The position numbers and the translations under genes were made by a program. The notes beneath the pieces are model-generated. The model saw only the letters and a list, made by a program, of their open reading frames with translations. It had not been told where the DNA came from and ran no database searches. A stretch of DNA of 64,000 nt, from positions 1,529,780 through 1,593,779 of the forward strand of contig OX621173.1 in NCBI GenBank assembly GCA_951640195.1, in the 5' to 3' direction. Of the stretch, positions 14,347-38,262 are shown piece by piece (positions within the stretch are counted from its first letter, which is position 1; each line of letters begins with the position of its first letter). This DNA comes from Porpolomopsis calyptriformis (Eukaryota > Basidiomycota > Agaricomycetes > Agaricales > Hygrophoraceae).

Positions 14347-14798
14347 GAGACTTTTGACTATTCCGAGGTTTTTTCATATAGATTGTAAGTTCTTCTGTTG
14401 TAATACGGCATTTCTTTCACTCTTGTGGTTCGGGCCAGATTCACTGGCTGCTTTTATAATACTTCATTGTCACTGTACGTTCGCTTATATACCATGAGTT
14501 CATCGCTTTCGTCCACAAAGGCTACCCACTCCGAGGAAGGCTGGGGAGAATGTTACTTTGCTGGCAAGGTTTCACAATGAAACCGTTTAACCTAGGTGAA
14601 CCCATACTTGCCAGTCGCGCGGTGTTATCCTCAAGAACAGAATCATGAATCTACTGTTTCGCCTCTTGAGAAAACATACGCAGATAAAGATACAGGAAAA
14701 ACTTACATAGCCTTTAATTATCTCAACAATGCCCCGGAGAGCTGCCCAAGAGGCATTCGATGTAATATCTGGGTCCCAACAGTCTGGTTTCGAGGATC

Positions 14799-15628
14799 TC
14801 AAAGAGCAACACCCTTTACAGGCTGGCCACCCTTGCTGCCATTGCCCTTCAAGGCGTAACATGCCCTCCACTTTTTCCCAATCGCAGAAATGGCATACAA
14901 TCGATCCGAATGCTGATTGTTTGGCCCAATCTCATCGAGATGTCGAATGACTTGGACAATGGCAGCATCCCGCCCCGAATCCATTTGGAAGTCTGATGGA
15001 GGCTTGACCTCAACAAGCAACAACGGGTGCTGATGATGCTCGATAACGAAAGCAATCGTGAAGTCGTCGGTTTTTCTGGAGTCTGGAATGGACCACTGGG
15101 GACAGACATCATAGCCTTCGGTTGGAGGGAACCAATAGTTCAAAATCTTGTCATAAAGGGGGTAAAACTTTGTTTCAATGCTCTCGTTGTCGTTGTCCAA
15201 CTCGGCAGCCTTGATTAAAATGTACTGTGGGTAGCCACCGCCACGAAGACGAAGGACTACACAAAGTATCGATGTTAATTGTAGGGGGCAGGGCTTAATG
15301 GCGTACCCAGATGAAGAGTGGACTCCTTCCGGATGTTGTAATCCGAGAGAGTACAACCATCTTCCAACTGCCTTCCAGCAAAAATGAGACCTACCACGCT
15401 GGATCAGTGTAACAAGACAATGTGGAAATATGGATGGGCAGACGATGTTGATCCAGGGAGATGCTGCAATATGATGTGAAGCATATTGGTTGACCATCAA
15501 CCAGGCAATCTGTGAAAAACTAACACTTCCTTGTCATGAATCTTGGCTTTGACATCATGGAGAGTGTCAGAAGACTCGGTCTCAAGAGTAATTGTCTTCC
15601 CATTCAACGTCTTCACAAAGATCTGCAT
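14799..15628 (-). CDS. Ubiquitin (K48R) fused to a PD-(D/E)XK nuclease-like domain
   Basis: Starting at the minus-strand ATG 15628, exons 15628-15525, 15463-15444, 15390-15307 and 15256-14799 join in frame across introns of 61, 53 and 50 nt. Residues 1-76 are ubiquitin: [16 protein letters not shown] at the start, the LIFAG I44 patch and the LVLRLRGG end. Clear changes are N9, T17, V35, S37, L38, H41 and R48 in place of Lys48; K6, K11, K27, K29, K33 and K63 remain. Directly after GG comes a domain with [10 protein letters not shown], then [12 protein letters not shown], then [11 protein letters not shown]. The D...ExK...Q layout is that of restriction-nuclease-fold proteins. A one-base frame slip after GGQPVKGVA ends the frame at 14799. 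The family-like C-terminus (PDCWDPDITSNASWAAL) continues in the next frame to about 14707. A deubiquitinase could release the C-terminal part. The role is unknown. The closest analogy I know is the Crinkler/CR-effector plan of a ubiquitin-like header plus nuclease. Confidence 0.72.
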
Positions 15629-15777
15629 TGTGAGGGTGAGGGAACACTGTAACGTAGCGTGGCAGAGTTTGCTACACTTTTACGCTACGTTACTGTGATC
15701 ATCACTCTAGGTCGTATCAACCAATCTTCAATATCCAGATCGCCCCAACATATCATAAGGAAGATTCAAAGGATACT

Positions 15778-33810: not shown

Positions 33811-35693
33811 ATGGTAACTGATTCAACCACCATCCTGGCCTCGCACTCTCCATCGCCGCCTCCGCCCTACGCCCTCACCAATCCCAAACCACACCAGGCA
33901 TCGACGTCCGAGCTCATCAGCAATGCATGTCTGATTACTGCTGCCACATTAGACTTGTCGCCAGCAGAGCTCGATTCTCTCACAGAACAGCTCAACCCGT
34001 TGGTCGACGAATTCTACAAACCCGACCTCACCCCTTCCCCACCTTTATCCCCTTCGTCATCCTCATCTGAGGAATCCTTTAATACTGCCCTGTCCTCTCC
34101 GATTGAAGACCCGTCCAACCCATCTACACTCCTTGAAGTAGAGCCAGTCGTCCACCTCCAAGTTTGCTTTCACGTTCACCACCCCCGTTGCCTCACAGAA
34201 CAAGTCGTTGTCCCCGTTATCTACGTTTTCCAACGTCGCGATATGCAAGACGTACGAGAAATCCATCTCGTACTTGATCATTAGCCAATACATCTCGCCC
34301 GTCGCGGAGGCCCTCTTATAGCGCCTCAGAGACTGAAGAAGAACAAGAGTTCGAAGACACACCCGAAGACCACGAGATCCACTTGCCCTTCTCGTCGCAG
34401 CTTCTTCCCCCTCTTCTTCCCTCCATCTCTTTGCTCGAATCCGGGCCCTCCACCTTCGTACGGACTCCCGTCTCGTTCTCATTCCTAGGTCTCAGACCTC
34501 GATGAACCCCTCCTCCTCCGGTTGATTCACCTTTCCCGCGACCTAGCCCCAAGGGAAAGCAATGGATTGCTTCCGTTGAATTCGAACCAGAACCCAAACC
34601 TTCAGACCCACCTCCTTCTGCTCCTTCTTCTCTTTCCTCCAGAAAACTAAGCCCTTCTCCTCGAGAGCCGTTAGCTCTCCTCCTCGACACAGACCCTGAA
34701 CCGAACCCAACCCTGCACACGTCTCCTTCTCCATCACCACCCAACAGCCCCCTCCTTGCTCCCCCAATGGCTGCCGCTGTCTCCAGTAAAATTAAGCTCG
34801 CCGAACCCAGTACATTCAATGGCAACCCAAAGACCTACAAGGATTGGTATCGACAGGTCATCATTTTCCTTGCTGGTCGTGGCATCACCGACAAGACCGA
34901 ACGCGCCCTCGTCACCCTCTCCTACATGAAGGAAGGGACTGCCGCCATCTGGGCCCAGCAGTTTGTCGACGATTTCCTTGACCAGACAGACGCTCAGGGT
35001 AACACTGTCCCTTTCCCCGATTGGGCAGACTTCAAGATTGGTCTTGATAGAGCTTTCACGGACACTGCCTCGGAGCAACGCGCACAAGAAGAGATTGAGA
35101 CCATGATGCAAGGGTCATCCCTCATTGTGGAATACCTTGTCAGGTACAAGATGAAGGCAAAACTTGCTGGCCTCAGCCAGGATAAAGAAAAAATCCGGAT
35201 CTTCGAGAAGAACATCCATCGCGACATCGTTCGCCAGATGTATCTTAACCCTCCCCTCCCCACAGTATGGGCTGACTATATCGAGAAGGTCGTGGCCATC
35301 GGACAGCTCCACAAGCGCTATCGCCAACAGGAACAAGCTCGTCGTCCGGCTGCCCCTTCTTCGCGATTCGTGCCCCAGACCTTCCCTCGTCCCCAAGGTC
35401 AACCTGCCGAAGATCGTCGTGTCCCCACTGGGATCATCCACAGCAGTCAGGGAAAGCCCATGGACGTTGACAAGACACGTCAGGTCCACCGATGTTTCAA
35501 CTGTAGAGAGATCGGACATTTCCAACGAGATTGTCCCAAGGAGAAGGCTGCCGTGAATGTTCGTGCCCTCTTCTATGACATGACCACGTCGGAGCTGAAC
35601 GAGCTGAAGAACCTCCTTTCCGAAGAGGAGCACAGCTCAGCGAACGAAACCCCTGCTCTCGGTGACGAATCGGATTTTGTCGACGGTCAATGA
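33811..35693 (+). CDS. gag: Gypsy gag (capsid and nucleocapsid), N-terminal part frameshifted
   Basis: The intact frame 34767-35693 (308 residues) begins MAAAVSSKIKLAEPSTFNG and carries the capsid-like retrotransposon gag domain (KTYKDWYRQVIIFLAGRG, AAIWAQQFVDDFL, VEYLVRYKMKAKLAGL). It ends with one CCHC knuckle, CFNCREIGHFQRDC, near residue 245, and an acidic tail. Upstream, 33811-34766 is a Ser/Pro-rich region open in one frame to 34286 and in another afterwards, so the longer gag has a frameshift. The stop codon TGA at 35691 overlaps an ATG (ATGA, 35690) that opens the protease frame. It would assemble virus-like particles, but the element as a whole is inactive. Confidence 0.85.
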
Positions 35694-36631
35694 AGATGCG
35701 TTCCCTTCACTCGACTGGTAGCTGTTTGCTTTGGCAGAACACTCTCATATCAGACACTTCTCTTTTATCTACAACAACGGCATGTACAATACCTAGTATA
35801 TCCAAATCCAATACCCCTGTTGTTTCTTCCCCTCCGAAACCTGTTCTGTCAGACGCATGCATTGAACGCCCTGAAACTCTCACTCCCGAACCATTGTCTC
35901 TTTCTGTCAACTCAATCGACGTCAACTCTCTTTCAACACCTCTGGATATCATTAATGCTATTAAGGGCAACACTAATTCTGCGATCTCCATCCTTCAACA
36001 CTGGTCACACCCAGCGCGTTCACGCGAGATGGTACAATCCACCATCGATGAAATCACCGCCCTCACCCCAGAGAATGCCATTCGAGCCTTGAACGAACTC
36101 AAACAACCTCACGTCTTCGTTTGTGGTTCCAAAGGAAATCAACTCATCCTCAAGGCCCATCTTGTCACTCTGGACAATCATACAGAGCATACTGCCACCG
36201 CTCTCGTCAACAGCGGATGTGAAGGCTCCTGTATTGATGTCAAATACGTCCGAGATCATGATCTCCATATGACCTCCCTTGCTTGACCCATTCTGGTGCA
36301 CAATGCTGATGGACAACCCAACACCGAAGGCCCCATCACGGAAATGGTCACTCTCGAGATGCGAGTCGGAACTCACGTGGAAAGGATCAATTTCAGCGTA
36401 ACCAATCTCGGCAAGGGACAAGTCTTCCTTGGACATGACTGGCTCAAGACCCATAACCCCTCTGTGGACTGGAAGGCTGGTACCCTCGATTTCGACCGAT
36501 GCCTGTCGGATTGTCATCCCTCTGTCGATTCCTTCGACATCAACAACCTCATTCTGGAAGACAATGATCATCTCCTCATGATCGATCTCGCTCCTGCTAT
36601 CCAGATCCAGTTGATGACTACCAAGTTGTAG
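35690..36631 (+). pseudogene. pol: Gypsy aspartic protease region
   Basis: Starts in the ATGA overlap with gag, runs through a linker and reaches a retroviral-type protease core with ALVNSGCEGSCID, where the usual active-site triad D-S/T-G is N-S-G. The Asp-to-Asn change fits GAC to AAC at a CpG. The flap-like later part (GKGQVFLGHDWLKTHNPSVDW) is in a second open stretch (36296-36631) after a TGA at 36286-36288, where Arg (CGA) is likely. Without the catalytic Asp the polyprotein could not be processed. Confidence 0.85.
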
Positions 36632-36655
36632 GAACTCGCAATCAAAGCTGCCGAG

Positions 36656-37986
36656 GCCCAGAAGAAGGACCGCGATTAGAAAGACATTGTCCCCAACTAT
36701 CTTTATGAATTCCAAGACGTCTTCACCAAAAAGGACTTCGACGAACTACCACCACCCCGTCCTTGGGATCATGTGATTGAGTTACTCCCCGGAACCGAAG
36801 AAAAACTCGATTGCAAGATCTATCCCCTCAGTGTGGATGAACGTTCACAACTTGATGAATTCCTCGAGGAGAATCTCCGAACTGGACGAATTCGCCCTTC
36901 CATCTCCCCCATTGCTTCCCCCTTCTTCTTCATCAAGAAGAAAGATGGTCGATTACGCCCGATCCAGGATTACCGCAAGTTGAATGACATGACCATCAAG
37001 AATCGCTATCCACTCCCCTTGATCACTGAACTCATTGACGCCCTGCAGAATGCCCATTACTTCACTAAATTGGACATCCGTTGGGGCTACAACAATGTTC
37101 GCATCAAGGAAGGCGATGAACACAAAGCCGCATTCAGGACTAACCGTGGCTTGTTCGAGCCCTTGGTTATGTTCTTCGGGCTCACGAACTCGCCTGCCAC
37201 TTTCCAAACAATGATGAATGACATTTTCCATGTTCAGATCCACCAAGGTCACATATTGATCTACATCGACGATATACTGATCTTCGACAAGGATCTCGGG
37301 ACGCATCATCGGCACGTCCACGAAGTCATGTCTCTACTCCGTGAACACAAGCTTTATCTCAAGCCTGATAAATGCGAGTTCGACCAAAAACAAGTGGAAT
37401 ATCTCGGAGTCGTTGTCTCAGAAGGCCAAGTCAAAATGGATCCGATCAAGGTCCAAGGCATCACCGATTGGCCGACCCCGACTTGCAAATGCGACGTTCA
37501 GTCCTTCCTCAGATTTTGCAACTTCTATTGTCGTTTCATTCACCACTTTGCCGGTATTGCCCGCCCCCTTAACATCTTAACTGGAAACACTCCTTTCGAA
37601 TGGACTGATCAATGCCAGGATGCCTTCGACATCCTCAAAACTATCATTACTTCCGCTCCTGTTCTCTCCATCGCTAACGATCATGACTTACTCCGCGTCG
37701 AGACTGATGCCTCTGAGTACGCTTTGGGTACTATACTCTCGCAAAAACAAGAAAACATTTGGAAGCCCATCGGATTCCTCTCAAAGTCATTCAGTCCCGC
37801 GGAATGGAACTATCAGATTTACGATTGCAAACTCCTCGCAATAATGACCACTCTCCAAGAGTTTCGCAAGCATTTGTTGTCCGCAAAACAAGTCTTTGAG
37901 GTTTGGACTGATCATGCCAACCTCCAATACTTCAAGAAGCCACAGAAGCTCAACAGGCGTCAGGCCCGCTGGCTCACAGCACATGG
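36656..37986 (+). pseudogene. pol: Gypsy reverse transcriptase and RNase H (5' part)
   Basis: RT reads almost intact: IYPLSVDERSQLDEFLEENL, SPFFFIKKKDGRLRPIQDYR, FTKLDIRWGYNNVRI with the first catalytic Asp, NSPATFQTMMNDIF, and the YIDD box (ILIYIDDILIF). RNase H follows with RVETDASEYALG and EVWTDHANLQYF, but the block expected to read DKELLAI is DCKLLAI, replacing a catalytic Glu by Lys. Stops lie at 36629 and 36677 (TAG where CAG is expected). The text breaks at RRQARWLTA, where the foldback element enters, and resumes after 42286 with LLTELQDFHFTLHHVAG. Confidence 0.88.
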
Positions 37987-38262
37987 TTCAGTCAAAGATA
38001 GTGGTGAACTACAGTGAAATGAACTTGCTATATAGCGGTGTTTCTCAGTCCACCGATCTTCGGCTGAAAATACATATATAGCTGATGTACACTGAAGCGC
38101 CGAAATTTATATATAGTAGTGAAATACATCTCCACTAAGAGGCAGGTATGCCAGTACACTACAGAGTAGCCAAGAGTGATAAGGGAGATACACTAATAGG
38201 CCGAAGATAGTACTCACCAAAGACTATGGAGGGGCCGAGAAATGGATGTATATGTATATGGC

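Follow-up and report, generated by a model that had tools for sequence, protein, structure and literature searches.

The stretch of DNA analysed here, called the window, comprises 64,000 nucleotides of Porpolomopsis calyptriformis (contig OX621173.1, positions 1,529,780 to 1,593,779). It contains a gene on the minus strand, from 15628 to 14799, that codes for ubiquitin fused to a second domain which appears to have a PD-(D/E)XK restriction-enzyme fold. As proposed in the initial annotation, four exons join in frame into a complete ubiquitin and the second domain; the joined reading frame has 221 amino acids and all three introns are GT-AG. The exon joining is predicted from the DNA. The proposed extent of 14700 to 15628 is right at its start at 15628, but the coding sequence already ends with the stop codon at 14799. 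The gene has the following features:

15525–15628, minus strand: exon 1, ubiquitin codons 1–34 and part of codon 35
15464–15524, minus strand: intron 1, 61 nucleotides, GTTAGT...TTGCAG, codon 35, phase 2
15444–15463, minus strand: exon 2, 20 nucleotides, remainder of codon 35 to the first base of codon 42
15391–15443, minus strand: intron 2, 53 nucleotides, GTCTGC...GGTAG, codon 42, phase 1
15307–15390, minus strand: exon 3, ubiquitin codons 42–69 and the first base of codon 70, including K48R
15257–15306, minus strand: intron 3, 50 nucleotides, GTACGC...GTGTAG, codon 70, phase 1
15237–15256, minus strand: 5' end of exon 4 (whole exon 15256–14799), end of codon 70 to codon 76, (V)LRLRGG, with the predicted deubiquitinase cleavage site
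14802–15236, minus strand: PD-(D/E)XK-fold domain in exon 4, residues 77–221, truncated; fold taken from the relative P0023
15063–15065, minus strand: D134, first acidic residue of catalytic type, just ahead of core strand 2, placed by sequence and the P0023 model
15003–15011, minus strand: E152-V-K154, ExK motif at the end of strand 3, placed by sequence and the P0023 model
14799–14801, minus strand: stop codon, premature compared with the relatives
14704–14805, minus strand: out-of-frame counterpart of the relatives' last ~34 residues

Immediately upstream of the ATG lies an inverted repeat (15642–15700) with 19-nucleotide arms, 89% complementary and 21 nucleotides apart, which occurs once in the genome.

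Residues 1–76 form a complete ubiquitin ending with LRLRGG, and 62 of the 76 are identical to the canonical sequence. The Pfam model PF00240 matched with 85.3 bits (E 2.4e-24) at a curated cut-off of 25.4. Among the 14 substitutions are K48R, G35V, P37S, P38L, Q41H and R54C; K11, K63, L8, I44 and V70 are unchanged. The residue-by-residue comparison thus agrees with the earlier description of a ubiquitin with Arg in place of Lys48 that retains Lys63, Lys11 and I44. Compared with two polyubiquitin repeats of the same genome, nonsynonymous change (pN) was 0.09 and synonymous change (pS) was 0.73 and 0.85, a measure that reflects past selection and in which some of the synonymous change falls on the polyubiquitin side. 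Synonymous sites are saturated while the protein has changed to a limited extent, and since pN is far below pS, the ubiquitin has long been kept by selection, if a looser one than that on canonical ubiquitin.

The second domain starts with GYPQY directly after the GG and carries D134 (in DDFTI), E152 and K154 (in VEVK) with the spacing first noticed. A restriction-fold core, alpha-beta-beta-beta-alpha-beta, was obtained in a structure model of the Armillaria relative P0023, and the D...ExK residues sit at its strands 2 and 3 when D134, E152 and K154 are placed on it. The model supports the suggested PD-(D/E)XK fold. The nuclease domains of the Type IIG restriction enzymes BpuSI and DrdV are 13% and 10% identical to the fold model; they differ in that the fusion is devoid of a methylase or target-recognition part and its family varies at the catalytic lysine. 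No Pfam model matched the second domain in the window protein, P0023, P0107 or P0013. A sequence search of solved structures gave no match with the C-terminal domain of P0023 and one insignificant match (E 1.1) with the profile of alignment A2, which holds 33 of 97 ubiquitin-free proteins. In NCBIfam, a Rad23 model matched P0023 and P0016, below its cut-off and in their ubiquitin part only, and nothing matched in P0122; PADLOC had no match for these three proteins.

A search with the second domain found 215 proteins at E values up to 0.01, the best being 91% identical. Chance can be ruled out as the source of the fusion gene because a 76-residue ubiquitin is combined with a domain that has such close relatives. 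Of the 120 relatives listed, 31 carry a precomputed ubiquitin domain, and the fusion was also found in other Agaricomycetes. Ubiquitin-bearing relatives among the matches listed come from Lactifluus volemus, Armillaria fumosa, Russula ochroleuca, R. aff. rugulosa, Lactarius pseudohatsudake and L. hatsudake, and some are named "ubiquitin-related domain-containing protein" by NCBI; one L. deliciosus protein and a second R. ochroleuca protein are without ubiquitin as annotated. A wider family of 97 ubiquitin-free proteins has members in Lactarius, Amanita, Pisolithus, Armillaria and Coprinopsis, among others. Its domain is homologous to the fused one, as supported by hhalign (99.5%, E 4e-23), but is not preceded by ubiquitin. 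The genome of the window (33.5 megabases, 17 contigs) contains one fusion copy and five distant second-domain paralogs (L002 to L006) according to searches that scored the best candidates only; no ubiquitin was seen by eye directly before the five in three-frame translations. A repeated transposon passenger was rejected, as one copy of the gene was found among the best candidates scored in the genome and its upstream inverted repeat was found once. Among 54 pattern matches in viral contigs, there was no relative of the fusion, and no ubiquitin-nuclease fusion was described in the titles and abstract openings of the open-access literature searched. A real Agaricomycete family of ubiquitin fusions is well supported by these sequences.

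Within this family, ubiquitin was compared in 14 fusions, namely the window protein and 13 relatives chosen by eye as spanning ubiquitin (three of them without the first four residues). Their identity to the polyubiquitin of the window genome ranges from 45 to 64 of 76 residues. G10, E16, L43, Q49, L50, L56 and Y59 are invariant; L8, I44 (V in the other two) and K63 are each retained in 12 of 14, H68 in ten and K48 in nine, and K48, K33 and R54 drift. As K48 is present in most of these fusions, its loss is a trait of some copies and not of the whole family. A degradation-resistant, K48-less tag as the purpose of the fusion is not supported for this reason, and K48R as a designed feature was likewise rejected.

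Concerning the second domain, alignment A1 (68 of the 120 listed proteins) has D in 58 rows at the position of D134, E in 55 and D in 11 at E152, and K in 44 at K154; the full D-[DE]-K set is present in 39 rows. Ranked by entropy over 183 columns, from most to least conserved, the three positions come 82nd, 83rd and 140th. In alignment A3 (67 rows, 66 listed proteins and the window exon), the D column is conserved in at least 90%. The 33 ubiquitin-free relatives have D in 24, E in 18 and K in 19. The 68 relatives show no variation at F112, P113, W124, P127, L149, G180 and G196. Given that such positions are fixed while the catalytic lysine varies, the family seems to be held to its fold more than to catalysis, provided that decayed copies do not make up many of the rows, and an active nuclease as the family function is not supported. 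The window copy itself keeps D-E-K, and any nuclease activity of it is putative.

The introns bear on the origin of the ubiquitin part. Intron 1 coincides with introns in repeats 1 and 2 of polyubiquitin in the same genome and with one in a gene assigned by its sequence to Ub-eS31; intron 3 coincides with an intron in the last polyubiquitin repeat. For intron 2, there was no counterpart among the canonical ubiquitin genes examined in this genome. The chance of both matches is 1.2e-4 under crude uniform placement. Because two intron positions are common to both, the ubiquitin part most likely derives from a polyubiquitin gene, and a single capture of polyubiquitin 3' exons would be the simplest history. 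Many metagenome relatives read ILCLVLRL.GG ahead of GYPQY, as would be expected if the end of a similar intron 3 were read through. In a tree of 107 rows (79 of the 120 relatives and the window, 23 of the 97 ubiquitin-free proteins and four of the five own paralogs, L003 being omitted for its unclear start), the fused rows formed one group with a support of 80/89, recovered in 81% of 200 bootstrap trees; "fused" here denotes the C-terminal domain family, to which the 31 proteins with a precomputed ubiquitin domain belong. The ubiquitin-free proteins were separate from it except for the long-branched L005.

Further ubiquitin pieces were observed in the genome. Dispersed copies, 91–93% identical, lie at C10:1952050-1952850, C5:400058-400863, C5:443793-443931 and C5:450765-450961, and parts of them carry a broken ubiquitin first exon; the copy at C5:400058 is situated ~0.7 kilobases downstream of the ubiquitin-free paralog L006. 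Pieces of ubiquitin exons seem to be mobile in this genome. At C10:117543-117866, ubiquitin pieces in tandem, divergent and interrupted by an in-frame stop, are probably a decayed polyubiquitin-like copy.

We favour, with modest confidence, the view that the window gene is a shortened member of a family of Agaricomycete precursors in which ubiquitin is fused to a partner and cut off after Gly76, with a second domain more likely to bind than to cut. The precursor would be cleaved by ordinary deubiquitinases like Ub-eS31 and Ub-eL40, and this would set free a divergent ubiquitin together with a small protein of the PD-(D/E)XK fold that begins with Gly-Tyr-Pro. The ubiquitin would serve chiefly in cis, as an aid to the folding and expression of its partner, and the freed domain would more likely bind nucleic acid or a protein partner than cut DNA, because family members vary at the catalytic lysine. 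Like the fusion, Ub-eS31 and Ub-eL40 have one N-terminal ubiquitin, a GG junction and a partner behind it, and the Ub-eS31 gene of this genome shares the codon-35 phase-2 intron; the fusion differs from them in its PD-(D/E)XK-fold partner and its divergent ubiquitin. Lineage-specific fusions to partners besides eS31 and eL40, e.g. Ub-actin and Ub-IMP, are known in certain lineages (PMC6332867).

Processing is suggested by the junction. In A1, 61 of the 68 rows retain G75 and 61 retain G76, five of the remaining seven being gaps, and of the 80 junctions that could be read, 73 have GG immediately before the junction and two more read DGG (of the 120 listed proteins, 37 were without the search motif and three started at the junction). 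The window protein has an intact LRLRGG followed by Gly, which established biochemistry would make a standard deubiquitinase substrate. R74, by contrast, is kept in 23 of the 68 rows and otherwise replaced mostly by C (24), H (8) or S (4). R74 and R72 are residues that E1, the ubiquitin-activating enzyme, and many deubiquitinases use. That GG is kept while R74 is mostly lost suggests a cleavage site under selection while conjugation features drift. Of the two options first offered, a processed or a deliberately uncleaved fusion, the GG conservation favours the former, although three relatives, P0229 and the Lactarius proteins P0230 and P0231, seem to be without most or all of the VLRLRGG tail.

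Several points weigh against this explanation. The three apparently tail-less proteins would possibly be uncleavable unless their gene models are wrong. R74 is often and R72 sometimes lost, R74 being present in four of the 11 fusions whose tail can be read; some of the R to C and R to H changes could stem from CpG mutation instead of relaxed selection. The folded model is that of the Armillaria relative and not of the window protein. The D column is better conserved than K, and the aligned rows may include decayed copies, many relatives coming from short metagenome contigs, so that catalytic conservation may be understated. In the tree, the bootstrap was unsettled, the root was set at the midpoint and L005 attached on the fused side.

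The window copy itself is altered at its C-terminus. It ends after GVAL, ~37 residues earlier than its closest relative P0001, and the 13 ubiquitin-spanning relatives range in length from 233 to 280 residues (12 have at least 250). The C-termini of the relatives inspected mostly resemble ...CWNPDITSDASW.ALQSIVETIKGYVA, and a counterpart was found at 14805–14704 in a frame different from that of the fusion; a short deletion has therefore shifted the frame and led to a premature stop. As the lost part covers the last helix of the P0023 model (residues 240–257), the truncated copy is probably impaired. An alternative intron around the frameshift was rejected: six GT-AG pairs of 38 to 101 nucleotides would work, all with sites judged weak. 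A serious, if less probable, alternative is that in this genome the gene is a family member decaying as a pseudogene, with no function at present. The frameshift, the single copy found by the searches and the changes at conserved ubiquitin positions (G35V, P37S, P38L, Q41H) speak for decay; on the other hand, the frame is free of stops up to the frameshift, the introns all retain GT-AG, D-E-K is intact, the ubiquitin pN is still far under pS, albeit as a record of the past, and one of the six weak intron pairs might skip the lesion.

It is rather unlikely that ubiquitin stays uncut as an N-terminal tether that guides the PD-(D/E)XK domain to the proteasome, Cdc48 or repair factors that bind ubiquitin, in the manner of the ubiquitin-like domains of Rad23 and Ddi1. 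The hydrophobic patch (L8, I44, H68) is mostly retained while K48, K33 and R54 drift, which would suit such a role, as would the loss of R74 and the tail-less relatives. The conserved GG and the substrate-like junction of the window protein oppose it, and processing appears about twice as probable as a permanent tether.

A Crinkler-like effector or conflict (incompatibility) nuclease, with ubiquitin in place of the ubiquitin-like header and a toxic restriction-fold domain, is very improbable. The general layout is that of the Crinkler (CRN/CR) effectors described in PMC5289972, with a ubiquitin-fold header and a restriction endonuclease (REase) fold at the C-terminus, and the family diverges rapidly, with D-E-K intact in the window copy. 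In common Crinkler architectures, a nucleoside triphosphatase (NTPase) or kinase domain accompanies the REase (PMC5289972). The window protein, however, starts directly with MQIF of a true ubiquitin with polyubiquitin introns, and its second domain follows without an NTPase or kinase among the Pfam matches; the catalytic lysine varies in the family. No Crinkler header was among the matches at E values up to 10 in Pfam, which contains a Crinkler model. The reading as a Crinkler-type effector was rejected on these grounds.

Finally, deubiquitinases might free the nuclease-fold protein together with an altered ubiquitin that caps chains, a self-encoded "chain terminator" made one-to-one with a protein acting on nucleic acids, but this is most improbable. 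Such a ubiquitin would be able to join chains and would cap them in copies lacking Lys48, the window copy included, which keeps the LRLRGG tail needed for E1 activation.

The genes on both sides of the fusion gene, initially taken for F-box genes, are related to each other and have N-termini resembling F-boxes, but the F-box-like model matched them with 16.4 and 14.0 bits (E 0.0076 and 0.043), under the Pfam cut-off of 24.3. The best repeat elsewhere in the genome of a neighbour's 3' region stops near 14610, so the fusion gene occupies the spacer between its neighbours; no sign of a functional link with them was found in the window context. The window also contains retrotransposon pieces at 34767–38017 (gag with a zinc knuckle at 34767–35693, reverse transcriptase with RNase H at 36773–38017) and a PIF1-like helicase fragment at 1833–2525.

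According to PMC8122580, ubiquitin is fused almost exclusively to itself or to two ribosomal proteins. A search of word beginnings, which "endonuclease" would escape, found no word starting with "nuclease" in the main text of either PMC6332867 or PMC8122580. The second domain is common, with 215 proteins, and had no Pfam match in any of the four proteins tested. Judged from sequence conservation, the drifting ubiquitin surface and the retained GG junction point to a cis role, in which ubiquitin would aid folding and then be released, over a supply of ubiquitin. This long-lived mushroom fusion to a restriction-enzyme fold, whose introns point to polyubiquitin, would be a natural test of why ubiquitin gets fused to partners.
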